The translations under genes and the position numbers were made by a program. Below, in pieces: positions 2,036 to 15,568 of a DNA stretch of 64,000 nt. The stretch lies in IMG/VR virus record IMGVR_UViG_3300018080_000154, positions 1 to 64,000 of that record, one strand, 5' to 3'. This DNA is from a virus. Every line of letters starts with the position of its first letter. Positions within the stretch are counted from its first letter, which is position 1. The notes under the pieces were generated by a model. The model ran no database searches and was not told where the DNA came from. It worked only from the letters and a program-made list of their open reading frames with translations.

Positions 2036-3523
2036 TTATGCTATATCAACACCAAGAAGACAACCAACACCACATTCAACCGCAAAAGTTGAGTCGGTTA
2101 CCAGTGTTGCTCTTACCTTTTGTTGACCTACAACAAACGATGCATAAGCGTCTCCAACACCTATGCCTAGTTTTGCATCAGTACTAAACGATCCACCTTT
2201 ATTCAAAAATAATGGAAGACCGTCGTCCAGTGCATCAAAGTTTGTATCCGATGCTTTAAGATTTAATGTCTCGGCGTATTTGATAACTTCAACAGGATCA
2301 TCGGCCACTAAAGCAGAGCCAGTTTGAACAACACCAATTCCCCAAAATTTATTTGGAAGATTTTCATGATCGGACGATGCCTTGTAAACCTTGCCGGCAT
2401 CTTCTCCGTTAAGACCATAACGTACAACAAATGTTCTATTCGCTTCAAATGCCTCACCCGCAACACCAGGAAAATTCAGAACAAAATGTTTTTTGTTTTC
2501 AAGTTCATCGTCCACGTATTTTTTATTTGCAATATGATAGTCGTCGGTCGGCGCAGATGAAGGTGTTTTGGTATGATTTACAAGTTCTGGTTCATTCGAT
2601 GTGTTTACCTTTAAAATTTCAACGTCATCGGTATCTAAAGCATTTCTTGCTCTTAATGTTTCATTATTAGCAAGTCTTAGTTTAGATCCATCGACGGCGT
2701 TTGCCACGATGGTAAACGTTCCATCATTTGCCATGCTAAGATCACCACCAGGTGTTTGTTCGGCGGCTTCATTAGAAGCGTTACCAACCCAAATCTTAGC
2801 ATTGCTTAAATCAATTGACTGGACCTTACGAATTTCCCATTCGGGTGTTCCATCGTCGACGTAAAGTAAATCTCTATCCAACGTGTCACAATAAGCAACG
2901 TAGCCTTCTAGAGGAGAAACCTTCACCCAAGATCCTGAAGTGAACTGAACAATATCTCCAGCAGATGCTCCGTCCCAATCAGCGTGAGGCGCTCCGCCTG
3001 TTGTTTGAAGAATGTATCTATCACCTTCAACCTCTGTTGGTGGCGCAACAGTATTGTCGGTGATAAGATTTATCACCTTAGTTCTTCTTGAGTAACCAGT
3101 TTGAAGATTGTTTATCTGTGTTTGAATGTTTGAAGTCACACCGTCAAGATGTGCAATTTCTGCCGCCGTGATATCTGAGTGTGTAGGAATTCCAGCAGCG
3201 TCGGAGATAAGTGCACGACTTGCAGTAATGGGATCAGCCTCAACGATTTTATCTCCAAGACTTCTCATTACTCTATTATTCACCAACGTGGTACTTGAAT
3301 TGGTACCACCGTTTGCAACCGGCAGAACATTGTCAACCTCACTGGTTAAATCAATATTTCCGCTTATTAGTTGTTTGTTGGCGTCAAGACGTGCAGGTTT
3401 GCTTTCCGTTACCGTAGGGTCTGTAACTTTAAAACTTGTGGCTTTAAGTACGTTGCTATCGGCGGTTAAATCTATGCTTTCTGGTAGTCCATCTACCATG
3501 TGGGCAATGACCGAAACTTCCAT
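2036..3523 (-). CDS. Tail fibre-like structural protein
   Basis: The 495-residue product starts MEVSVIAHMVDG. Its N-terminal half has the look of phage fibre shafts: TVTESKPARLDANKQL, GGTNSST near residue 73, and a short segment SNIQTQINNLQTG. A middle part (about 150-240) resembles the DUF2793-like fibre insert ending in DGTPEWE. The C-terminal 150 residues (FVLNFPGVAGEAFEANRTFV onward) resemble the small DUF2190-type beta domain (GKVYKAS, GIGVVQ). A role in the virion as fibre or tail decoration follows from composition and neighbours. Exact position on the particle is unknown. Confidence 0.7.
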   Translation of the reverse strand: MEVSVIAHMVDGLPESIDLTADSNVLKATSFKVTDPTVTESKPARLDANKQLISGNIDLTSEVDNVLPVANGGTNSSTTLVNNRVMRSLGDKIVEADPITASRALISDAAGIPTHSDITAAEIAHLDGVTSNIQTQINNLQTGYSRRTKVINLITDNTVAPPTEVEGDRYILQTTGGAPHADWDGASAGDIVQFTSGSWVKVSPLEGYVAYCDTLDRDLLYVDDGTPEWEIRKVQSIDLSNAKIWVGNASNEAAEQTPGGDLSMANDGTFTIVANAVDGSKLRLANNETLRARNALDTDDVEILKVNTSNEPELVNHTKTPSSAPTDDYHIANKKYVDDELENKKHFVLNFPGVAGEAFEANRTFVVRYGLNGEDAGKVYKASSDHENLPNKFWGIGVVQTGSALVADDPVEVIKYAETLNLKASDTNFDALDDGLPLFLNKGGSFSTDAKLGIGVGDAYASFVVGQQKVRATLVTDSTFAVECGVGCLLGVDIA

Positions 3524-3564
3524 GTTCTATCTCCCATATTGAAAAATAAATTAGTGTCGTGCCG

Positions 3565-3813
3565 TTAACCCTTTTCGGTAATGTCTAGCACAAATTTAAT
3601 GTTAACATTATGTTCAAGCATATCCTCGATAAAGTACTTGTACTTTTTACTGATGTTACTCAGCTCGTCGATAGCCTGTTCCACTTCTTTTCGTTTTTCT
3701 TCGTCGTTGATCACTACTTTATTGTTAAGAAATTCTACCAATTTCTTTGCGCCGCCTTTACTTTTTGCAGTCTTTACTTTTTTCTTAATAATTTTCTTTT
3801 TTGTTTTTGCCAT
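3565..3813 (-). CDS. Small lysine-rich protein
   Basis: This 82-residue protein has an extremely basic N-terminus (AKTKKKIIKKKVKTAKSKGG) followed by a predicted helical acidic/basic region (EEKRKEVEQAIDELSNISKKYKY). The ATG at 3813 overlaps the stop of the 914-residue gene upstream. The basic tail recalls the Lys-rich tails of two other small proteins near the capsid gene (30793-31446). Function is unknown; a nucleic-acid-binding or fibre assembly accessory role is inference only. Confidence 0.7.
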   Translation of the reverse strand: MAKTKKKIIKKKVKTAKSKGGAKKLVEFLNNKVVINDEEKRKEVEQAIDELSNISKKYKYFIEDMLEHNVNIKFVLDITEKG

Positions 3814-6557
3814 TACGCTACCCCAATCGGTGATATTTGAAGAACCAATCTACCTTCATCCCAAATTCCCATGTAAACAATCCAAAGACCACTTCCTGTT
3901 GTTGGCGGTGTGATAGAGTATTTACCAAGATCGTGTAACCAAATGCGTGATCCGTCTAAAGGTAAAGTTCCTTCTACAAAGTTTGATGCCGTGAGAATTC
4001 CTTCCGGCACTGTTCCATGTGTTTGAATAGATCCGTACTCGTTGTTTGGTACGTCTTTAAGTAGAACACCAAAAACACGTGAGTTAAGTTCAGTGTCTCG
4101 GCTTGCTATATGAAACTTACTAAGCTGTTTGCGTACGGCCCATCCTTTGTAAATAGTTTCACCAGATGTTTGAAGAAATTCTCTTGGTGCGGTTGCCGAA
4201 ATTGGAATTGACGCCCCGCCTCCTGTTTGATGAATTACTTCACCAGTGTTTTTGAGCCAAATACCAGACATGCCGGCCGGAAGTGGATTACTTGCCTGTT
4301 CGGTAAAACCAACTCCTTTAGGATCAATGATTCCTGTTACGTCAATGTCTCCAAGAAATCTTGCTATTTTTTCACCAGCAGGTCCAGAGATTTGCCACGG
4401 CGCACCGGCCACTGTTTCAATTGTTCTTCCATTATTGTAAACCGTCTGCATATCAGGTCCGGTTGCAATACTTCCAGCAGCGGCTCCTTCAATTCTTAAT
4501 AACTCAATTTCAACACGGCCGTCTTTTCTAACGGTTCGATCGAATTCAATTTCGGTGCTTGAAATTTTATTAAAATCTACACCCTGTTCTTGATTTACCC
4601 CGTTTAGTCTTACGTTAATATCTCTAACCGATGCGTTATCCGTCCAGTCAAATTGTGTAACCTGAAAAACTGTTTGACCAAGTGGATTGGTTACGTCAAA
4701 GAATTGTATCGTTCTTGCTTTAGAGAAAATAGCACTTGGGTTGGGACTCATTATTGTAATGTCGGCTTCGGAAATATCTTGAATCGTTCCTGACGTTCCA
4801 GTACCATCGTCCTTACATGTTACCATCCAAAGTGGAACACCATCGGCCATGACTGGTTCTTCCGCATCGACGCGGTTGACGTTTTCACCACTTGGTGTTA
4901 TGACTTTTAATTTCCCACTACGTGCAAGTACAACGCCGTAAATAAAGTACGTCCCAGGGGTCGTAGGCGTATACGGAGTGAAATCATCTCCACCACCTGT
5001 AACTACACCTGTTGAAAAGTTGATCGTTCCTCCGGGGTATTTAGACGCAGTATCTTCTACAACCATTGCGTAGGTTTCTCCAGTGGCCAAAGTTACTCGA
5101 CTACTGGATACGTTTACAATTTTATCCGGCGGATTTGATATTGTTGGTCTACAAATATTTCTAAAAAGTGTTCTATCAAAAACTTCATTTAGACTTGCAT
5201 CGACAGGTATCTCGGTTCCGTCACTTGTTTTTGAGTAAACCGGTCTTGATCCTGTGCGAATTTCTTTACTTCTTATCTTACCAGTTCCTTGAGCACCATC
5301 TGCGTCAAAGTGATATTCGTTATCGGCTTCAACAAATCTTATTTTGTCATCGTCCGAGAAGTAGATACTGTTTCCAATAACTACGTCTTCCAGTTGTCGG
5401 GACTCACCTTGCTCAAGTTGAAGACCTCCGCGTACGTTTACCACTCCATCGTTTCGATGAAAAATCCAAACGTTTCTCATATTTGTTAACGACGCCGCAC
5501 TTCGTGGTGCTTTTTGCATCGTAAGTGTTCCTGCAACAAACGGATCTGGAAGTTGTACGTAGGCTACTTCATCATCGGCCAACTCAACATTGCTTGCCGC
5601 GATGGTTACTTCTGTACTGTCACCAAGTGGACGTATCTTTAAATCACCACCCCATGCTACTTTACCAGTAACCGACGGGTCGTGGTTTATTGTTCCGCCG
5701 CCTTCAAGTAAGGTAAGAAGTTGTGCGGCAAGTCCAGATCCTGGCTCCATTGTCAGTGATGGTAGAAATTTTCTATCGGTTTGATCAAAGACAGTTGGAA
5801 TGGCTCCAGTATTTCCGTCAATGATTCCTAGAAAACAAACAGTGTCATCAAGACGAAGATCTGTATTTTTCTTAACGATAGGTCCAAGAAGTGCACATTC
5901 ATACTCATTTTCATCTTCACTTACTAGTCCTATTTGTTGACCAAGCGCAGTGGATGTTGTAATGACGTTATTGGATCCATCCCATGTTACGTCACATGTT
6001 TCAAATGGTGTGGACTCGGTTTGTGGACCAATTGATCCGCCATCTTGACGACGTTTCATCCAGATGGTTACTTTTCTTCCTGCGTTTGAAACACCAGCCT
6101 CAGTTACCGAGTCTACTATAAATGTAATGGTACCATCACCGTTGTCGTTAGCACCGTTTGGTGTTGCTTTAAGTCCCACTATTTCTTTGTAGACACGATA
6201 TTCAATAAGACTGGTTTTTACGTTGCGTTCGGTCTCGTCTGGAATTAGTATTGGTTTTATCCCAACGTAGTAACTTGATCCAGTATTATTTTCAAATGCA
6301 ATGTTGGAGGCCAATGACGGTTCAAGAAAACAATCGACGCCGTCTGAATTCATTCCTTCACATGGCGTTTCAAGAGTAAACGTGTCGGCAAGGGTTGACG
6401 ATATATCTCCGCCCCTGAATATACCGCCGCCCCTGTAAACCCGCTTACCAACATCAAGGGTAAGTTTCTTTAAATAATCCATGAAGAGTTCGGTGATTTC
6501 TTGCTGCGCAAGGAACTTCTTCAAATAAATGATTACGCTTTTGTCGTTAGTTGTCAT
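3813..6557 (-). CDS. Large tail fibre / baseplate-distal structural protein
   Basis: The 914-residue product is the largest in the fibre cluster. The N-terminal 40 residues are helical (LKKFLAQQEITELFMDYLKKL), like a baseplate attachment segment, followed by Gly-rich RGGGIFRGGDIS. The rest is beta-rich with repeated small-domain features (NGANDNGDGTITF; GTYFIYGVVLARSGKLKV; DWTDNASVRDINVRLNG). The C-terminal region (PREFLQTSGETIYKGWAV, IWLHDLGKYSITPP) resembles the DUF2190-like end of its neighbour at 2036-3523. Cys residues near 68 and 77 are unusual for a fibre. It probably forms part of the host-contact apparatus. Confidence 0.75.
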   Translation of the reverse strand: MTTNDKSVIIYLKKFLAQQEITELFMDYLKKLTLDVGKRVYRGGGIFRGGDISSTLADTFTLETPCEGMNSDGVDCFLEPSLASNIAFENNTGSSYYVGIKPILIPDETERNVKTSLIEYRVYKEIVGLKATPNGANDNGDGTITFIVDSVTEAGVSNAGRKVTIWMKRRQDGGSIGPQTESTPFETCDVTWDGSNNVITTSTALGQQIGLVSEDENEYECALLGPIVKKNTDLRLDDTVCFLGIIDGNTGAIPTVFDQTDRKFLPSLTMEPGSGLAAQLLTLLEGGGTINHDPSVTGKVAWGGDLKIRPLGDSTEVTIAASNVELADDEVAYVQLPDPFVAGTLTMQKAPRSAASLTNMRNVWIFHRNDGVVNVRGGLQLEQGESRQLEDVVIGNSIYFSDDDKIRFVEADNEYHFDADGAQGTGKIRSKEIRTGSRPVYSKTSDGTEIPVDASLNEVFDRTLFRNICRPTISNPPDKIVNVSSSRVTLATGETYAMVVEDTASKYPGGTINFSTGVVTGGGDDFTPYTPTTPGTYFIYGVVLARSGKLKVITPSGENVNRVDAEEPVMADGVPLWMVTCKDDGTGTSGTIQDISEADITIMSPNPSAIFSKARTIQFFDVTNPLGQTVFQVTQFDWTDNASVRDINVRLNGVNQEQGVDFNKISSTEIEFDRTVRKDGRVEIELLRIEGAAAGSIATGPDMQTVYNNGRTIETVAGAPWQISGPAGEKIARFLGDIDVTGIIDPKGVGFTEQASNPLPAGMSGIWLKNTGEVIHQTGGGASIPISATAPREFLQTSGETIYKGWAVRKQLSKFHIASRDTELNSRVFGVLLKDVPNNEYGSIQTHGTVPEGILTASNFVEGTLPLDGSRIWLHDLGKYSITPPTTGSGLWIVYMGIWDEGRLVLQISPIGVA

Positions 6558-6614: not shown

Positions 6615-8411
6615 CTAAAGTAAGTTGTTTGGAAGTATTTTTTCTACATCAAGTGGATGTTGAAATACTTCTATCTCGGATACCTTTATTTTGCCACCTA
6701 CGGATGTTTCTAATCCAAACTTCCCTTTGGTAAACGTGGAGTCGTATATCTCCACAATCTTGTTACGATCGTGATAACAAATAATCTTGTCATCGAATAT
6801 TGCAACAGTAAAAAAATACTGGACGCCGGGATACATATCCACATAATGTGGACCAGATAACAGTGTTTGAACACCGTCTACAACTTTGTAAAGACTTACG
6901 GTTCTTGAAACTGTGTCAAATCTATAGACGTAATAATTATTTTCGTCCTGAATGTAGAAACGTTGACCACATTCTCCACTTACTGGAACTATTCCAGCCT
7001 GAAAAACATAGTTCACCCAGTCGATGTCTTCGGCCAATGCAGAATGTTCTCCAGTATTTGACTCAAGAACAAAATAGGTTTCACCGTCCACGTAGGACGA
7101 TCCATTTATTGTATTGAACTGACCTTTGCCGGCACCAAAATTTGTGTAGAAGTCTAAATACAAAACATTCAAACGTTCTGAAGTTATTCGCATAAGATTT
7201 AATATCTGTTTCAGAAGAAGTCGGTTAAGATCACCTCGATCAACAACTCGTACGTCGGAATAAAATTCCGGAAGAAGTTCTTCCTGATACTCGGTGAATG
7301 GAAGTACTGGCACTAAAAGTGAACCACTTGTTATGTTGTACACGTTATTCAATGAAATTCTAAGATTGTCGATGAAGCCTTCAAATCTATTTTCAAAACC
7401 TGTGTCGCAGGTCAATATGTCGGCCTCGTTTGTAAGATCATCAATTGCCGTAATACTTGTTGTTACGTAACCTATTCCATTGAAATACATTCGTGCTACA
7501 TTTGTGGTGCGGTTTACCATCAAAACAAGATGACGTAACGTCCCGTCTTTAAGGTTTGGTATCGTGCTTTCACCAGATGTGTTTTCCGTCCCGTCGGAGA
7601 TTGTCCATTTTATTTTCCCAGAGTTTGCTTTGTATTCTATTGTCACTTCTTTTGTCCCAGATTTTTTCTGAAACAACACCATATCTTTATCCGTGACGGT
7701 TCCAACAAACATCTCGATGGTAAAGTCACCGGAAAAATCATATCGACTAGAATGTTTTATCTTTGCAAACCCACCGTACAACCAAAGACCGTATCGACTT
7801 TCATTTCCTGCTACGGAATGTTGTACGAAATCAACATCACCAGATTTTTCAATCTCATTTCTTACAATACTTCTATCAAGAAAAGATTTTTCTAACGGCC
7901 AAAGACCTACTACGTTATTTGTTGGAATTGTCTCGGCATAGCCCGGTCGACTAATAAACCAAGAGTCTTCACCAAGTTGTTCTTCACCAAAGCTAGCCTC
8001 TCCAACAATGTATCTGAAATCAAACCAATTGAAAACCCTTGAATCGCTACCGGTAAAACTACGAACGATGTTTTTATAACCTACATCAAGTCCCTTTTGT
8101 CCGGTCAATTGCACAAAAAGACTTATCACTCTTCTAAGATCATCCTCGGATAGATCTTTAGTTATCTTATCAAGATTTTTTGTGAGACCTACGATAGGTT
8201 TTAAGTATTCAAGCGCAGCGGCTGGTGTTCTTGATGGTACCCAAAGATCTAAAATGCCATTTATTTTTGGCCAGATTTTTTCTTCCCATATTCGTTGAGG
8301 ACCAAACATGTATCTTTGAAGAAAATTTCCTTGACTTTCATCAGCAACCCGCAATGGTTTATGAATGAACCTAAACATATCATGCGGGAAATTTTCGTTT
8401 AATTTAGCCAT
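6615..8411 (-). CDS. Tail protein I-like baseplate protein with lectin-like domains
   Basis: The N-terminal ~165 residues (FPHDMFRFIHKPLRVADESQ; IWPKINGILDLWVP; LRRVISLFVQLTGQKG) resemble phage tail protein I / P2 gpI, the wedge component that normally follows baseplate J, which it does here. Residues ~170-370 form a concanavalin/LamG-like jelly roll (GLWPLEKSFLDRS, FTIEMFVGT, RHLVLMVNRTTNVARMYFNG, EGFIDNLRISL). A second lectin-like beta-sandwich occupies ~430-590 (KIICYHDRNKIVEIYDSTFTKGKFGLET). The fusion of a wedge module to carbohydrate-binding domains suggests a surface-facing baseplate arm. The gpI assignment is from family knowledge; sugar binding is inference. Confidence 0.75.
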   Translation of the reverse strand: MAKLNENFPHDMFRFIHKPLRVADESQGNFLQRYMFGPQRIWEEKIWPKINGILDLWVPSRTPAAALEYLKPIVGLTKNLDKITKDLSEDDLRRVISLFVQLTGQKGLDVGYKNIVRSFTGSDSRVFNWFDFRYIVGEASFGEEQLGEDSWFISRPGYAETIPTNNVVGLWPLEKSFLDRSIVRNEIEKSGDVDFVQHSVAGNESRYGLWLYGGFAKIKHSSRYDFSGDFTIEMFVGTVTDKDMVLFQKKSGTKEVTIEYKANSGKIKWTISDGTENTSGESTIPNLKDGTLRHLVLMVNRTTNVARMYFNGIGYVTTSITAIDDLTNEADILTCDTGFENRFEGFIDNLRISLNNVYNITSGSLLVPVLPFTEYQEELLPEFYSDVRVVDRGDLNRLLLKQILNLMRITSERLNVLYLDFYTNFGAGKGQFNTINGSSYVDGETYFVLESNTGEHSALAEDIDWVNYVFQAGIVPVSGECGQRFYIQDENNYYVYRFDTVSRTVSLYKVVDGVQTLLSGPHYVDMYPGVQYFFTVAIFDDKIICYHDRNKIVEIYDSTFTKGKFGLETSVGGKIKVSEIEVFQHPLDVEKILPNNLL

Positions 8412-8419
8412 TTATTCTC

Positions 8420-10939
8420 TCATACAATGTTCACGGTTATCGTGCCAGGAAACGGTAGTTCTCTTTCACCTAAAATCGGATCCGTTGCCGGTGTAATCAG
8501 ATTAACGTTCTTAATTGCTTTTGGATCTACGTTTGTAATCTCGGTTATCATAAGACTTCTTGGAACAGTGTCTTGAAAAGTCCAACGATACGTGTAACCG
8601 TCGTCGTATTTTGCCGTCGGTGTCAAAAGGGCAATAAGTGCGTTTTTGATTTCCTCTGGATTTCCTCCAGATACTTCAACTTCAATATCAATTATTTTAC
8701 GATCATAGTTGGTTACGGTAATCTCATGGTTTGAAACTAAAATACCTTCTATTTCTTTTGTCTTGTTACCGTTGAAATAGTCTTCAACATCTTCTCGTTG
8801 TGATAAAGACAATTGATTGCCACCAATACCTACGGCAACAACCTCAAGAGTTTTAACACCGAATGTTTCTTCAAATGCTATTGCACGTTCTATAAGTTGA
8901 CTATTATTTTCGGTCCTGTATTTTGTGGCCAAGAATTCTGCGTCTTCCGGTGATATTGCTCTACCTCTTGTAAGAAGTGTTGCAGGGCCTTCTATTTTTA
9001 GTCGTTCAATATCTTCCGGCGTTGCGCCTTCTTTTATTTTCCAACCAGTTGCCTGACGTGGATTGTAGACTCGGTTTACGAATGCAATACCACTTTTGTT
9101 TACGGTTATTGTTCTTGCACCTACGTTACCGTTTACGTCAGCGCCTATTGAGTAAAACGCCCGTATATTATTTGATCCAACGTTAGGTATTTTTCCTTGA
9201 CTACCACTACCAAAAATCACAACCGCAGTGTCGTCGGATTTAATATCTAGTCGATAGTCTTTACTTATGTTTGTAGAGTTTAGAAAATTGTCTACCTGTG
9301 ACCATTCGGTAAAACCGTCGCCTTCATCTATTTCAAGACGAAGTGTTCCATCAATGATCGGTGAGTTTGTTATCTCAAATTCTTGATTGGGTGACCCGTT
9401 ACTACTTCCAAGAGGATCGTCCGACGTGCTTCTTCCTTGAACAACTTCTACCAAAAGATATTGTTTACCGCTATCGATTAGCAGTCGATCGATGTTTGGA
9501 ATTCCACCAATTCCATTGTACGTATGCGGGTAGGTTGTTTCGGTAAGGCCAAGTATCTCTTTTGTTGCATCGTTTGCACCAGGTTCTTCTAGTTTAACTT
9601 GACTTTGTTGACCAACGGTTTGACTGGAGAGTTTTAATTGTCCACCTTCGTTCGATGCCACGGAGTTAAGACTTGCATCAACACCGGACAAAACAGAATT
9701 GATTTGAGAAATTACACCAGACAACGTATACGTACCAGCAGATGCTCCGTTATCTCCTGTTACGTCTACCACGGTCGAGGCAAACTCGTCTATCTTTATT
9801 TTTATATTGTAATTGGAAGGATCAAGATCTTCAAGTTTTAAATTTGTTCCAACTACATAGGCAGATGTTTTTTGGTATCCAGTAACTCTAAATCTTATCC
9901 AGAAGGCTTCAACACCATTTACTATTGATTTGATCCAATTTTGTGTTTCGTCTTGAGGTAAATCAAATTCAATTTTTCCTTCTTCGGTAAATCCATTTGT
10001 ACCATCAATTACATTTTTAAGTGGATTCCAATTTGATCCAACGGTGTAATCGTCTACGTCGGTACTTACAGACGATTGACCTAGAAGACCAACGGTCTCA
10101 ATAATATTTTTGCCACCAGAATAAATGCTTTCAACTTCTTCATACGCCGACGATGAATTCAGTACAACCTTAACCAATGATCCAGATCTATCTTCGTCTC
10201 CCAAAAGATCTGTCAAATCAAATCTAAGATTAGATCCAAGATTCGTCACTGCGTCTGGTTTTGTGTCGTCCGTGTCACCGTCGTAGTATTCCCAAACACC
10301 ACTTATCCCACTTCCTGGTGTGTTGTATTCAAACTCTACCGTATCAAACATGATAGAATCATGACCTACGTAAAACGCAGTGTTCAAAACCGGCTCCGAG
10401 TTGAACATGTCAACATAAACACCAACCGTACTTAATGCACCAGAATGGTTGGCGCCAAAAACACTGGCCTCGTGTTGATAAACGGCAGTTGGTCTATCGG
10501 TTCTAGAAATTTGATTGTCACCTGTTGCCTGATAAATAATTTGAGGCGTATCATCGGTTTCCTCTGTAGCAAACTGTGTTCCTTCTGGGACGATGTTTAC
10601 CGACGATGTAAAGACCTTTGAAAACTCTAATAAAACTTCAGCAGACGCCGGGAGATTATGCTCAAGCTTAACTGCTATAAGAGCCAACCAGTTACGCATT
10701 GACTCAAGAAGTCTTGCGGTTCCAAACAATGCTTCATTGGCCACGATGTCAAGGTTTACGTTATTGAGATGAGCACTTAAAGCATAAGATTTTAAAAGCT
10801 GGATGTACGGTTCGTGTTGATCTTCATCTGTGATTTCTGGTGCATAAATACGGTTGTACAATATCAACGCACGATATATGTCCGGATAGTAGAATGACGT
10901 GTATTCAAAATCTGGAACTTCAATAATCTGTCCTGCCAT
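8420..10939 (-). CDS. Baseplate J-like wedge protein
   Basis: The 839-residue protein belongs to the baseplate J / Mu gp47 / T4 gp6 family. The N-terminal ~120 residues are helical (YALSAHLNNVNLDIVANEAL, ESMRNWLALIAVKL). These lead into the typical PEGTQFATEETDDTPQIIY segment, and near the C-terminus RAISPEDAEFLATKY and NHEITVTNYDRKIIDIEVEV match the J family. At least one inserted beta domain (about 360-470) makes it longer than P2 gpJ. It directly follows gp25 and precedes the tail protein I-like gene, the standard gp25-J-I order. It should form the wedge ring of the baseplate. Confidence 0.92.
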   Translation of the reverse strand: MAGQIIEVPDFEYTSFYYPDIYRALILYNRIYAPEITDEDQHEPYIQLLKSYALSAHLNNVNLDIVANEALFGTARLLESMRNWLALIAVKLEHNLPASAEVLLEFSKVFTSSVNIVPEGTQFATEETDDTPQIIYQATGDNQISRTDRPTAVYQHEASVFGANHSGALSTVGVYVDMFNSEPVLNTAFYVGHDSIMFDTVEFEYNTPGSGISGVWEYYDGDTDDTKPDAVTNLGSNLRFDLTDLLGDEDRSGSLVKVVLNSSSAYEEVESIYSGGKNIIETVGLLGQSSVSTDVDDYTVGSNWNPLKNVIDGTNGFTEEGKIEFDLPQDETQNWIKSIVNGVEAFWIRFRVTGYQKTSAYVVGTNLKLEDLDPSNYNIKIKIDEFASTVVDVTGDNGASAGTYTLSGVISQINSVLSGVDASLNSVASNEGGQLKLSSQTVGQQSQVKLEEPGANDATKEILGLTETTYPHTYNGIGGIPNIDRLLIDSGKQYLLVEVVQGRSTSDDPLGSSNGSPNQEFEITNSPIIDGTLRLEIDEGDGFTEWSQVDNFLNSTNISKDYRLDIKSDDTAVVIFGSGSQGKIPNVGSNNIRAFYSIGADVNGNVGARTITVNKSGIAFVNRVYNPRQATGWKIKEGATPEDIERLKIEGPATLLTRGRAISPEDAEFLATKYRTENNSQLIERAIAFEETFGVKTLEVVAVGIGGNQLSLSQREDVEDYFNGNKTKEIEGILVSNHEITVTNYDRKIIDIEVEVSGGNPEEIKNALIALLTPTAKYDDGYTYRWTFQDTVPRSLMITEITNVDPKAIKNVNLITPATDPILGERELPFPGTITVNIV

Positions 10940-10942
10940 TTC

Positions 10943-11308
10943 TTACCTCGTAAACTTTGTTCTAAATTCATCTTCTTCATCTGTTTCTGGATCAAAAAAT
11001 CTTACCGTTACATCCAGTTGACCTTCAACGTTTCTTTCAAGAGTGATTGCATTTTCTGGAACTAATACAATCCGACCTTCAAAAAGTGAAACTATATCGT
11101 TGACTATTTGACGTATTTCTCCAGCATGATTTGACGACGCCACTCGATAAATGATTTCTTGATCTATTCCAATATTTTGAAATGGATTTTCATCGTCGTT
11201 TTCACCAAATGCAAGACCTAGAAGTTTTTTAAGCTGAGAACTTCCTTCGACGGTTTTGCTTCCTCCGTCGTTACTTGTTCTTACAGGTATGTCGATTCCC
11301 TTGGTCAT
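10943..11308 (-). CDS. gp25/GpW-like baseplate wedge protein
   Basis: This 121-residue protein matches the gp25-like family (T4 gp25, P2 gpW) in size and pattern: ENPFQNIGIDQEIIYRVASS, then GEIRQIVNDIVSLFEGRIVL, ending in a beta segment (GQLDVTVRFFDPETDEEDEF). These proteins join the inner baseplate wedge to the sheath/tube interface. It sits three bases upstream of baseplate J, and its ATG overlaps the stop of the zinc-ribbon gene upstream. Confidence 0.9.
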   Translation of the reverse strand: MTKGIDIPVRTSNDGGSKTVEGSSQLKKLLGLAFGENDDENPFQNIGIDQEIIYRVASSNHAGEIRQIVNDIVSLFEGRIVLVPENAITLERNVEGQLDVTVRFFDPETDEEDEFRTKFTR

Positions 11309-11463
11309 TTATTTTCCTCTCGGAGTTTTTTGCATTCCTTACAAAGAATTATTTTGCAAGTAGGTTGACCATCTTTTTTTAAAATAATATCATGCTTTTC
11401 AGTTTCAGTAAGGGGTTTCTTACACGAATAGCAATTATATTGTTTAACGAAAAGTTGACCCAT
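11305..11463 (-). CDS. Small zinc-ribbon protein (52 aa)
   Basis: Translation from ATG 11463 gives a 52-residue protein, MGQLFVKQYNCYSC through CKECKKLREENK. It carries two Cys pairs (CYSC, CKEC) and a further Cys between them, so it probably holds one zinc. Its ATG overlaps the preceding stop (TAATG) and its TGA overlaps the ATG of gp25 (ATGA). This tight coupling supports a real gene despite the length. The role is unknown; baseplate clusters of other phages also hold small Cys-rich proteins. Confidence 0.75.
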   Translation of the reverse strand: MGQLFVKQYNCYSCKKPLTETEKHDIILKKDGQPTCKIILCKECKKLREENK

Positions 11464-11948
11464 TATTCTATGCTCACTTTCACGTCTAGACGCACAGGCG
11501 GTGAAAATGCCGGTATTGGCATAAGCGGAAGACTTGGAAGTTTAAAACTTGGTAAACTTGGAAGCACCACCGCAGGAATTGAAGGTAGGCTTAGACTTGG
11601 AAGATCTGGCAAGGCAAAACCATCTCCATCTCCAAAATCAAAACTTGGAAGACTTGGAAGACTTGGAAGTTTGAAACTCGGAAGACTTGGAAGTGCCACA
11701 GCAGGAAGACTCGGTAGACTTAGACTTGGAAGACTCGGAAGACTTGGAAGAGTAAAACCATCTCCATCACCAAAATCAAAGCTTGGAAGTTTTGGAAGAT
11801 CTGGAAGTTTGAAACTTGGTAAACTTGGAAACGCAATCGGTGGAACAAGAGCAAGAAGAAGTGTGGCCGGTACCCGTAACTCGGTTTGGTAAATCAATAC
11901 ATCGTATCGATATGCTTTTATCGTTGTTACTAAAGCCGGTACGCCCAC
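11463..11948 (-). CDS. Pro-Ser-Leu repeat protein of the baseplate cluster
   Basis: The 161-residue product starts at GTG 11948, behind an AGGAG site. A 40-residue non-repetitive N-terminus is followed by residues 41-147 built from LPS triplets. Within these, a longer 46-residue unit recurs: FDFGDGDGF at 57-65 and again at 103-111, with FKLP at 47, 93 and 135. The C-terminus (PVRLDVKVSIE) is again non-repetitive. The regular Pro spacing excludes ordinary helix and suggests an extended polyproline-like rod or a beta spike. Its place between spike/hub genes and gp25 suggests a virion role. I know no characterised homologue. Confidence 0.8.
   Translation of the reverse strand: MGVPALVTTIKAYRYDVLIYQTELRVPATLLLALVPPIAFPSLPSFKLPDLPKLPSFDFGDGDGFTLPSLPSLPSLSLPSLPAVALPSLPSFKLPSLPSLPSFDFGDGDGFALPDLPSLSLPSIPAVVLPSLPSFKLPSLPLMPIPAFSPPVRLDVKVSIE
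11508..11828 (-). repeat. Tandem coding repeat (LPS triplets, 46-codon higher unit)
   Basis: On the plus strand this stretch is built from ACTTGGAAG-type 9-mers repeated almost without interruption. A longer unit of about 138 bases contains the FDFGDGDGF-coding segment twice. The period is a multiple of three, so the repeat expands in frame. Slipped-strand change in copy number would alter protein length without frameshift. Confidence 0.85.
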
Positions 11949-11950
11949 CG

Positions 11951-12526
11951 TTAAATTACTCCTCCAAGATATGATAGTGGATTAGGACCAGCGTCTCCTG
12001 TTTTTGAGTCTAGTCCATCTACCTGGTATTTCAAAGACGCAAACGCTGCCAACAAATAATCTGGCATCTCGGTTGAAGTTCCAGTTGTTGGTGGATATTT
12101 GTCATCGGCCAATGGGATGGCCGTAATATCTGCTAGAAGAGTAGATGTTGCCAACGCTAACGATGCTGGATCTACAACACAAGAATTCACAACGCTAAAG
12201 GTTGTTCCTGGTGTAGGTGGATCGGTTGTTGCAAAACCTGGTGATGCCAACATGACCGAAGCGGCAACGGCAAGGTTAAACGCGTTTGAAATTACTACCG
12301 GTCCATTTCCAGATGGAGTAATTCCTGCTACGTTTGCTGCAAAAACTGCTCTATTAAAAGTAAAGACTGGTGGTACTCCTCCTGCCGGTGGACCAAGAGT
12401 CATCTTACCGTCAACTCGGTCTCCAAGAAAATCTGCAAATTTTTGAGGATACGCAGCGCCGGTTGGATCTGGGATCATGTCGATTTCCCATTTTGTTTTC
12501 CAAATTGTCAGAAGATCAATCGTCAC
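11951..12526 (-). CDS. Putative baseplate/virion protein
   Basis: The 191-residue protein starts at GTG 12526, overlapping the stop of the spike gene by one base. It is rich in Ala, Pro, Thr and Gly (TLGPPAGGVPPVFTFNRAVF; ATTDPPTPGTTFSVVNS). It has no transmembrane segment or catalytic motif that I recognise. It lies between the spike and the PSL repeat protein, so a spike-tip or hub accessory role is plausible but unproven. Confidence 0.7.
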   Translation of the reverse strand: MTIDLLTIWKTKWEIDMIPDPTGAAYPQKFADFLGDRVDGKMTLGPPAGGVPPVFTFNRAVFAANVAGITPSGNGPVVISNAFNLAVAASVMLASPGFATTDPPTPGTTFSVVNSCVVDPASLALATSTLLADITAIPLADDKYPPTTGTSTEMPDYLLAAFASLKYQVDGLDSKTGDAGPNPLSYLGGVI

Positions 12527-13416
12527 TACAAATTACCTCTAAGTTTCACGTAATCAGCAGCAGGACTTGTTGGCGGAGCCAACTCGGCAATCGCGCACGT
12601 ATTTGGTGGAAGAGGCGGACCACTTGGTCCTACGCCTGTTGCATGGATATGGGCGTCGAAAATTGTTTTCAAATTCTCATACAACACCCCACGAAATTCT
12701 GGTTTACCAAGAACAACCGATGCAACCAATGCGGAAAAACTTTTACCGTTAACGTTAACCTCTCCACTTGATATGATACCGATCTTACCATCCTCGGACA
12801 TCGTTATCATTTCCTTACCAGTGCTTCCAACCAAATTAATGTCTTTCGACAATGAAATACTGCTACCGTTTTTAGAAATTACAGACACGGCATTTTCTTC
12901 AGCGTCTAGGTTTATCAGGTTACCATTTGCAAGAATTTTTATCGATCCATTCTTGTCTATTTGAACTAACCCGCCACTTGGATTGTAAATCGTGATCGCG
13001 TCGGTGTTTTTATTGTCATCAAGTAGAATTATTTTTCCCTTACTTGACTGAAGAGCAATACGAGCACCGTCGTCCGAGTCGTCAAATATAAGGTAATGAC
13101 CTGCTTTGGTTCGTATTCCTTTTCTAAAAGGATAGTTGGTTGCAAATTCTTCCGGCATTTCTGTTTCAAGATTTAAAAGAACACAACGCCAACGTGGCTC
13201 TGGTTTTTCTTTTGATGTGTCTATTTCAATTTCAATCCAATCGTCAACGTTAGGCACGTCAAACCACTCGTGAGGAAATATCGGTTCGGCTGGTACTGGA
13301 AATTCTTGGTCTTCCAACAATTGATCACATTGAAAAAACACAGCACCTCGAAGCTGTTCACCAATATCTGGATCAGTGTTTCGTGTTACTTTTGCCTCAT
13401 AAATCTCAAGTGACAT
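12526..13416 (-). CDS. Baseplate central spike (gp5/gpV-like)
   Basis: The chosen ATG at 13416 (MSLEIYEAKVTRN) overlaps the hub stop codon as TAATG; a longer in-frame start is not needed. Residues ~1-110 form the gp5-type OB-fold region (DIGEQLRGAVFFQCDQL, DDWIEIEIDTSK, RWRCVLL). They are followed by the repetitive beta-helix needle (KAGHYLIFDDSDDGARIALQ, GKIILLD, GSIKILANGNLINLD, GSSISLS, GKIGIISSGEVNVNG). The HIHATGVGPSGPPLPP segment near the end is typical of phage spikes. It should form the trimeric membrane-piercing tip. No lysozyme domain is present. Confidence 0.88.
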   Translation of the reverse strand: MSLEIYEAKVTRNTDPDIGEQLRGAVFFQCDQLLEDQEFPVPAEPIFPHEWFDVPNVDDWIEIEIDTSKEKPEPRWRCVLLNLETEMPEEFATNYPFRKGIRTKAGHYLIFDDSDDGARIALQSSKGKIILLDDNKNTDAITIYNPSGGLVQIDKNGSIKILANGNLINLDAEENAVSVISKNGSSISLSKDINLVGSTGKEMITMSEDGKIGIISSGEVNVNGKSFSALVASVVLGKPEFRGVLYENLKTIFDAHIHATGVGPSGPPLPPNTCAIAELAPPTSPAADYVKLRGNL

Positions 13417-14663
13417 TAGTCTACAACCTTTGAACAATCTACACTGCATTCATAAACAGGACTTCCACTTACGTCCATTTTATGCAGTACTTTTGTGAAA
13501 AAATAATTACCAGAAAGACCTTTACCAATTCCTTCAAAACGGTGAACCTGTCTTGATTGTAGAAATTCTGTTCCTACAACCGACGCAGGTCCAGTTACGA
13601 AGTTATCTTTTCTTGCTTGCATCCATTTTTGGATTATTCTTTCGGCGTCCTTTTCATCTCGTACTGGTTCGTTTGCAATGATTTCACGACTTACGCCAAA
13701 AGCTTTAAATTTTATTTGACCAGGATTCCTTACTTCTTTTTTGATTGGTTTGTACTTGTCAGTTCCTTTGAACTGTCGTTCTTCCTTTTCTTTAAAAGAG
13801 TATTCTTTAGATCCTTCATTGTAGGTGAATTTTTTGTTAACGTCGCGGGTTACCGTCTTAACTTTCTTTCCTTCTTTTTTGTTGAACGATGTAACCTCAA
13901 ACTCAAGTTTTTGATCTTTGGTGTTTAGATCTGGATTGAAATCTAATAGAGTATTCCAAAGAAACTTCTCGCTCATGTTGTAGGTGTAAGTGTAGATTGG
14001 TTCTTGCTTTTTATCTGATGGTCTGAAAAACAACACCCACCGTTTTGTTCCAGCAACCTTCATGTAACGAACATAGAAGTCGTACGAATTAAAATCTGCT
14101 ATCTTTTTTAAGAATTCGTAGTCGTTTTTGTTTTTCTCCTGAAAGCGATCGTGTACTCCTTCTGTTTTTCTGATGTATTCAAAAGTAGATGGATCTGATT
14201 TTGCAATGTAGATACCATTTCTTTCACCAATTATTGAAGCAATTTGACTGTCTCTAAAATTTTTGTACGATATACCTTTCTCAGGTTTTGAGTCAATCAT
14301 TCTATGAGAAATATCGTACGCCTCTATTTGAAGACTAGGAAGACCATCACGTGGGAAACTTGGTTTTATCTTGACAACCTCACCGGCGCCAACTGGTGAA
14401 AGTTTAGATCCGTATCCCATTTCAACTTCAATTAAATTGCCTTCGGTGAAAATCTTTTGATCCAGCATCGTCATAATCTGGCTGCCTTCAACAACCATTT
14501 GACTACCAACAGTGAAACTTAATTTATCACACATGTTGGCGTTGTCTTCATATTCGACGGCGCCTATGAATTTTGAAATAGATTTCGGTAATTCGTCGCC
14601 GTTCACCAATAATCTAAAATTAGGTGCGTAAGGGTCTCTTGCTAAATTTATTTCGTTTGCCAA
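13416..14663 (-). CDS. Baseplate hub protein (late control D / gp27-like)
   Basis: The 415-residue protein matches the late control D / VgrG-hub / gp27 family: YEDNANMCDKLSFTVG, GNLIEVEMGYGSKL, LQIEAYDISHRM, DYEFLKKIADFNSYDFYVR, then a C-terminal domain with QARKDNFVTGPASVVG. A Lys/Glu-rich insertion (about 235-310) is longer than in P2 gpD. It is followed immediately by the spike gene, as in most contractile tails. It should form the trimeric hub linking tube and spike. Confidence 0.9.
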   Translation of the reverse strand: MANEINLARDPYAPNFRLLVNGDELPKSISKFIGAVEYEDNANMCDKLSFTVGSQMVVEGSQIMTMLDQKIFTEGNLIEVEMGYGSKLSPVGAGEVVKIKPSFPRDGLPSLQIEAYDISHRMIDSKPEKGISYKNFRDSQIASIIGERNGIYIAKSDPSTFEYIRKTEGVHDRFQEKNKNDYEFLKKIADFNSYDFYVRYMKVAGTKRWVLFFRPSDKKQEPIYTYTYNMSEKFLWNTLLDFNPDLNTKDQKLEFEVTSFNKKEGKKVKTVTRDVNKKFTYNEGSKEYSFKEKEERQFKGTDKYKPIKKEVRNPGQIKFKAFGVSREIIANEPVRDEKDAERIIQKWMQARKDNFVTGPASVVGTEFLQSRQVHRFEGIGKGLSGNYFFTKVLHKMDVSGSPVYECSVDCSKVVD

Positions 14664-14674
14664 CTTGTTCTACC

Positions 14675-15559
14675 CTATACGAATATAGTTTTTGTACCGC
14701 TACGTGACTCGTACATTTCTTTTTTACGAGCGTTGTTCTCGGTCTTGTTTTTCAGCATTACCGACTGTTGTGTAACCTCGGTTCCAAGCGCATCGTCTTT
14801 TGTTATCAACAAAACCTTATCGCCAGGTTTTAAAATTCTCATATCAGGATGTGCACGTCTTAAAATATCTCCACTAAGAGCGTAGCCGTATTCTTTTTGT
14901 GCAATTGTTTCAAAGGTGTCACCTTCTTTAACGACATGTTTTCTTGTAGTTGTTTTAAGACTTCCACCAGGTACGTCTATCTTTCCAATTTTCTCGGCAA
15001 TACCACCAACGGATTGAACAACACCAACTGCGGTTTTAATTTTGGTTGCAAGACTCATCCCTTGGGCTTGAGTGGGAATATCTTCCAAAATGACCAGATT
15101 CATTGAAAACGTTGCACCACGAAGACTACCATCGTGTCTTGGTTCATCGTAAACAATTCCACCAGGACTTTTTACGAAACACTTAAAAGCAATCTCGGTT
15201 CCGTTTGTGAAAATAAATATCGGAGGTCGTCGTAGATCGTCTCGTCTTTTTGAAAACGATTTTAAAAGAACAACCTTATCGTGTATGTTTTGAAAACTAT
15301 ATTGTGCAAAAATACGTGCGGTGAATGTAAAGGTTTCTTCATCGCCGGATCCGAATTGATTTGACGGTCGTTCCGAGTTAACGGAGTTAGTTGTGCTTAT
15401 TCTTTGTCCAGTATTTTCCGTGGCGTTTTGTGCTACAAATTGTCCTACAAACTCTGTTCCAGGTTTATCAAGCATACGAAGACGCCAAACCTGTTTTTGA
15501 GTTGGGAAGCCAAGAAGCTCACTACCGAATTCTTTTATTTCACCAAATAAATCTGCCAT
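14675..15559 (-). CDS. LysM-containing tail/baseplate protein
   Basis: ATG 15559 (MADLFGEIKEFG) is preceded by AGAGG and fits better than the TTG one codon upstream. The N-terminal ~175 residues resemble the tube-baseplate adaptor region of contractile systems (VWRLRMLDKPGTEFVGQF; ETFTFTARIF; PPIFIFTNG; GGIVYDEPRHDG). Residues ~210-255 are a LysM domain (HVVKEGDTFETIAQKEYGYA, HPDMRILKPGDKVLLI). A LysM in this position, between tape measure and hub, is typical of T4 gp53-like and Afp7-like proteins. Confidence 0.88.
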   Translation of the reverse strand: MADLFGEIKEFGSELLGFPTQKQVWRLRMLDKPGTEFVGQFVAQNATENTGQRISTTNSVNSERPSNQFGSGDEETFTFTARIFAQYSFQNIHDKVVLLKSFSKRRDDLRRPPIFIFTNGTEIAFKCFVKSPGGIVYDEPRHDGSLRGATFSMNLVILEDIPTQAQGMSLATKIKTAVGVVQSVGGIAEKIGKIDVPGGSLKTTTRKHVVKEGDTFETIAQKEYGYALSGDILRRAHPDMRILKPGDKVLLITKDDALGTEVTQQSVMLKNKTENNARKKEMYESRSGTKTIFV

Positions 15560-15568
15560 CAATTACCT

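Follow-up and report, generated by a model that had tools for sequence, protein, structure and literature searches.

A three-unit Pro-Ser-Leu repeat protein of the phage spike region and its possible role as a spike cap or collar

The gene at 11463–11948 of the viral DNA analysed here encodes a protein rich in proline, serine and leucine, and its relatives make up what is apparently an unnamed but real family of baseplate genes that are linked to the spike and keep to a plan of three units, a conclusion that is well supported. By analogy with PAAR tip proteins, to which it would not be homologous, the protein may serve the central spike as a cap or collar, made of one chain with pseudo-three-fold symmetry (probability roughly 0.4).

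The repeat gene in its cluster

The window, by which we mean the whole stretch of 64,000 nucleotides that was analysed, comes from an uncultivated virus whose record is 82,953 bases long. The repeat gene lies within the following cluster:

14675–15562, minus strand: LysM-containing tail or baseplate protein (weak LysM and baseplate-hub matches)
13416–14663, minus strand: baseplate hub, gpD/gp27-like (phrog_52, E = 2e-10)
12526–13449, minus strand: central spike, gpV/gp5-C-like (weak DUF2345; phrog_24638, E = 7e-5)
11951–12526, minus strand: uncharacterised protein of 191 aa between the spike and repeat genes (42–46% identity to its counterpart at loci L002 and L003)
11463–11948, minus strand: three-unit Pro-Ser-Leu repeat protein of 161 aa, GTG start
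11305–11463, minus strand: CxxC...CxxC zinc-ribbon-like ORF of 52 aa, sharing 1 nt with the repeat gene
10943–11308, minus strand: gp25-like wedge protein (named by position alone; no convincing profile match)
8420–10939, minus strand: baseplate wedge protein, gpJ/gp6-like (phrog_219, E = 1e-14)

An earlier note, made from the letters alone, had placed a repeat ORF among hub, spike and gp25 genes. The ORF itself is confirmed within the baseplate cluster and is operon-linked, with a GGAGG upstream of its GTG, a start 2 nt past the stop codon of the upstream gene, and the 1-nt overlap with the ORF that follows. The hub and spike assignments have profile support, while that of gp25 is by position only. 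The hub additionally gives a VgrG-related match with an E of 4e-8, which is under that model's cut-off, and the spike has a repeat-rich body, an HxH motif (DAHIHATGVGPSGPPLPPN) and a C-terminal LRGNL. For the 191-aa protein no convincing match was found in Pfam, PHROG, NCBIfam or PDB. The small zinc-ribbon-like ORF, which sits between the repeat and gp25-like genes, is absent at that place in L002. On the opposite strand, 11392–11892 (plus strand) is an ORF of RLGRLGSL repeats that is the antisense shadow of the repeat gene and unlikely to be a gene.

The repeat protein is composed of 20% Leu, 19% Pro and 13% Ser and contains no Cys. Its N-terminus is a strand-like segment of about 25 aa (LVTTxK...RVP), and a second strand-like segment, with VSIE as its last residues, forms the C-terminus.

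Repeat grammar and the family of relatives

The repeat spans residues 40–147, with the core PSLPSFKLP occurring three times (at residues 41, 87 and 130, spaced by 46 and 43) and the third unit shortened. The 46-residue higher unit described in the earlier note is real, as the mean BLOSUM62 score at lag 46 is 1.20, whereas 500 residue shuffles reached at most 0.28 and 500 triplet-block shuffles at most 0.48, but the core is present in three copies where one unit had been described. Similarly, the FDFGDGDGF segment assigned to that unit is found in units 1 and 2 and is missing from unit 3. The reading of the sequence as LPS triplets holds locally, but the spacing between hydrophobic residues is either 2 or 3, in steps of ΦxΦ or Φ-P-x-Φ that average about 2.7 residues rather than 3. 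The hydrophobic spectrum of the window protein peaks at 134 degrees (power 29.9), a period of about 2.7 residues, while power at 120 degrees is close to nil (0.9). A simple helix of three residues per turn is thus an incomplete description. Across the 13 proteins of the family, 91% of hydrophobic-to-hydrophobic steps are of 2 or 3 residues (38% in shuffles, maximum 45%), and 277 of the 281 three-residue steps are hydrophobic-Pro-x-hydrophobic. The residue directly before a Pro is hydrophobic in 91% of cases vs. 39% in shuffles. This pattern suggests an extended strand in which prolines are set at regular places.

Several known repeat folds seem a poor description of such a chain. A left-handed beta-helix or hexapeptide solenoid is not borne out, given the 2.7-residue period, the 91% of Pro after hydrophobic residues and low-confidence models without a strand; the beta-solenoid suggested earlier falls with it, since there is no hexapeptide rule and Pro makes up about a fifth of the residues. 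A collagen-like rod would have Gly at every third residue, which the protein lacks. AlphaFold2 monomer models (11–13 sequences) give a mean pLDDT of 57 for the window protein and 54 for its relative at L031, with no regular structure; models of such low confidence neither favour nor rule against a folded complex. The suggestion that the Asp-Gly loop binds calcium is rejected: GDGDG is present in window units 1 and 2 only, and relatives carry alternating hydrophobic-acid segments (FDFD, IDFEF, LDLDL) or other segments at that position, so that an acidic-glycine loop is conserved neither among relatives nor in each unit.

The family comprises 13 distinct proteins including that of the window (the others being L002, L038, L094, L046, L044, L031, L059, L037, L029, L154, L190 and L191), and every one of them has exactly three units, of a length that varies from 32 to 46 aa across the set. 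Further relatives were obtained by two pattern scans of viral contigs for the repeat and a third for a Pro-Gly form, all blind to gene context, while L002 and L003 were reached through the 191-aa neighbour protein. L003 is near-identical to L002, L011 and L013 are the same contigs met again, and L056 equals L037. As members were chosen by repeat density and by eye, the 13 proteins are no statistical sample; no protein of two or four units was noted in a baseplate cluster, and the scan patterns would have shown one. In 11 of the 13 there is a Cys near each end, one at residues 2–7 and one 3–8 residues before the last, mostly within CPLD or CPLE. The two types without Cys are those of the window and L002, and the Pro-rich L002 protein (152 aa) has ends like those of the window type, with an LVTTxK start and an SIE end. 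His is absent from all 13.

The fixed number of units also bears on how the repeat is maintained. Tandem arrays at the DNA level are poor in the repeat gene (66% matches, 16% indels), which means that the repeat exists at the protein level and is not a clean microsatellite. The 86% DNA identity of the two full window units over 78 nt makes some homogenisation or a recent duplication possible. Within several of the proteins many unit pairs differ solely at synonymous sites; codon pairs between units are 25 identical, 31 synonymous and 15 non-synonymous in L059, and 28 identical, 28 synonymous and 16 changed in L031. With three units kept throughout, unit length varying and units differing at synonymous sites, slippage-driven variation in length is unlikely as a function, and the in-frame expansion by slippage proposed in the earlier note does not stand.

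No convincing match to the repeat family was found in Pfam, NCBIfam or PDB, and PHROGs returned weak low-complexity matches only; the best PDB match is a low-complexity tract shared with red-algal phycobilisome linkers (E about 0.01). A tblastn search of the INPHARED phages with the repeat protein and relatives gave no match, and since the low-complexity filter masks such queries, absence is not implied. Profile scans for the 191-aa neighbour, and for L031 and L059 in bacterial genomes, yielded no further members, and in the literature searched no description of such a repeat protein was found.

Gene context across relatives

The spike-region placement proposed earlier recurs in other contigs, and most of the family lies in baseplate clusters of the contractile type, typically downstream of hub and spike and ahead of gp25 or a LysM protein. 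The order hub, spike, a protein of about 160–190 aa and then the repeat gene is found in the window, L002, L094 and L044, and in L002 this cassette consists of a spike, a 185-aa protein (42% identity in the best segment to the 191-aa window neighbour) and the repeat protein. Hub and spike are directly followed by the repeat gene in L154, L191 and L029, while L031 and L059 have hub and spike upstream with a short unassigned stretch before it. For the spikes of L044 and L154 there is a Phage_base_V match with an E of about 3e-13. In L031, L059, L191 and L029 hub and spike were assigned by eye or weakly, the sole profile support at these four loci being a weak Mu gp45 match of the L191 spike (E = 0.036). 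Downstream, gp25 follows the repeat gene in L094 and L044 (PF04965, E = 5e-16 and 7e-14) and a LysM baseplate protein follows it in L002 and L038. The spikes of L046 and L038 are unseen because their sequences end just upstream, and L190 is the exception, with neighbouring genes that form no clear hub-spike set. This recurrence makes it reasonable to read the gene as part of the spike region and its product as a spike cap.

At loci with the HxH spike pattern, other than L011 and L013, no repeat protein was found in the stretch examined (density at most 8 per 60 residues vs. 10–20 in the family). In Streptomyces phage BRock and three other phage records, all reached through spike or wedge similarity, gp25 comes straight after the spike and the repeat protein is lacking; the repeat gene is therefore an insert that is optional and linked to the spike.

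The spike region holds other features of its own. Directly after the HxH spike, nearly every examined locus (L008–L020, and 11951–12526 in the window) has an Ala/Pro-rich protein of 150–200 aa without a known family. Several of these are mutually homologous (L010, L019 and L012; L094 and L044), and for the 191-aa window protein homology to other spike-adjacent proteins was not detected (hhalign probability 0.3%). In L094 a GIY-YIG homing endonuclease (6673–7227) separates the repeat gene from the gene for the spike-adjacent protein. L085 encodes a 1154-aa protein (2863–6327), by eye a T4-like hub/spike, with an internal LPSLPSLPSLP tract and without three units. In L008, L017 and L020 a protein that appears by eye to be S1-domain-like follows the spike-adjacent gene within the baseplate region.

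Possible roles and comparison with known spike tips

The repeat gene product may be a structural protein of the baseplate centre, a single chain whose three homologous extended (polyproline- or beta-like) units would pack as a pseudo-three-fold body. This body would rest on the three-fold central spike, or encircle it, and close or brace its end. The ends of the chain would meet, locked by the Cys pair in most relatives and by the N-terminal and C-terminal strands in the window type, and the protein would act like a PAAR tip without being one. Three units per chain near a trimeric spike, together with Cys or strand-like segments at the ends, suggest such a body on the spike, and we infer along with it presence in the virion, pseudo-three-fold packing, joined ends and spike binding. 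The invariance of three units in spite of varying unit length favours a pseudo-three-fold chain matched to a trimeric spike, and the fixed plan predicts one copy per spike. A precedent is given by PAAR, which starts with pseudo-trimeric symmetry where it meets the trimeric VgrG prism (PMC10715212). Against a cap, the window spike itself carries HxH, a motif by which the P2, phi92 and R2 pyocin spikes bind iron and close their tips with no cap (PMC10715212; PMC10811340); the repeat protein may thus serve as a collar or staple and not form the point. The shortened third unit in the window and the absence of a predicted fold (pLDDT 54–57) may also count against it. The presumed spikes of L031, L059, L191 and L029 are without HxH in the sequences shown while the repeat protein is present, and there a cap could be needed.

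A Pro-rich chain that is unfolded alone could instead run as an extended staple along grooves of hub, spike and wedge and tie them together, its three units lying at three equivalent hub or spike sites. The Pro, Leu and Ser composition and the lack of a predicted fold for the chain alone are consistent with this, three units would suit three such sites, and similar tracts occur in solved phycobilisome linkers (LRC2 in 6kgx, LPP2 in 7y4l; the low-complexity match above). Some room is left also for the flexible linker named in the earlier note. The Cys at both ends of 11 proteins and, in the window type, the strand-like segments at the termini point to a closed body and not an open strap, and we regard the staple as somewhat unlikely. 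A further alternative, in line with the rod of the earlier note, is a homotrimeric rod of three chains side by side that would lengthen the spike. Spikes are trimeric, the sequence is repetitive, and the strongest lag of the hydrophobic pattern in the window protein is 8 (0.72), which may be set beside the 8-residue repeat VxGxxxxx of the T4 gp5 beta-helix (PMC4576200); the lag-8 signal is weak on the family average (0.17), though, and a rod has no need of a fixed unit number, whereas the family keeps to three units of varying length, all of which makes the rod improbable.

We give a similarly low probability to an assembly helper or chaperone for spike or hub that is missing from the finished particle. 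The gene is small, optional and adjoins the spike gene, and T6SS spike-tip complexes are described as likewise having chaperone genes (PMC11883445), but the family has no match to known chaperone families and the Cys near each end would fit an extracellular structure. It is very improbable that the ORF is a spurious low-complexity frame or a neutral repeat. The sequence is repetitive and has its antisense shadow at 11392–11892 (plus strand), but units of relatives differ mostly at synonymous sites, as in L059 above, termini, context and unit number are conserved, and operon spacing is tight.

The repeat protein might further represent a third way of ending a puncturing spike, a non-PAAR, disulfide- or strand-locked pseudo-three-fold cap whose fold, rich in proline, would be new and which uncultivated phages and phage-like elements would use in several baseplate lineages; this broader claim is tentative and we consider it rather doubtful. 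Tip closure and cargo of a contractile injection machine decide how membranes are pierced, and a distinct family of tips or collars built from three proline-rich units would, if true, be a new structural answer.

Among known systems, the red-algal phycobilisome linkers LRC2 and LPP2 share the local sequence PSLPNLPNLPKLPSLSLP, in contrast to which the three-unit architecture does not extend into the match; with low complexity and an E of about 0.01, no relation is implied. The triple-stranded beta-helix of T4 gp5 shares an eight-residue periodicity that is visible in the window protein, which differs in being without VxG, about one-fifth Pro, and built of three long units per chain.

PAAR tip proteins (PF05488; T4 gp5.4, T6SS PAAR) are likewise small, encoded near the spike and built with three repeats per short chain. 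The repeat genes also lie near a spike except in L190 (upstream sequence is missing in L038 and L046), and all 13 proteins have three repeats in one short chain, of differing sequence. A pseudo-trimeric body, proposed here for the repeat protein, would meet the trimeric spike in both, and most relatives have a Cys at a possible closing point. The family differs in having no PF05488 match and Pro-Ser-Leu units rather than PAAR motifs. A Pfam scan of the window protein and four relatives gave no PAAR match at E up to 1, and no PF05488 match was found in 19 whole records, an absence that is weak evidence since many of them are fragments. PAAR itself binds in a single copy to the spike trimer's blunt end. 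Its zinc site is formed near the vertex by three His and a Cys (PMC8651086); with no His in the family and no Cys in the window protein, there is no such His3-Cys site. Repeat proteins also differ from PAAR in often accompanying spikes that already have HxH. With the self-closing HxH spikes (P2 gpV, phi92, R2 pyocin gpV, Mu gp45 and Milano gp27) the window spike shares its HxH, followed by GPSGPP, and the difference is that the window additionally encodes a separate three-unit repeat protein.
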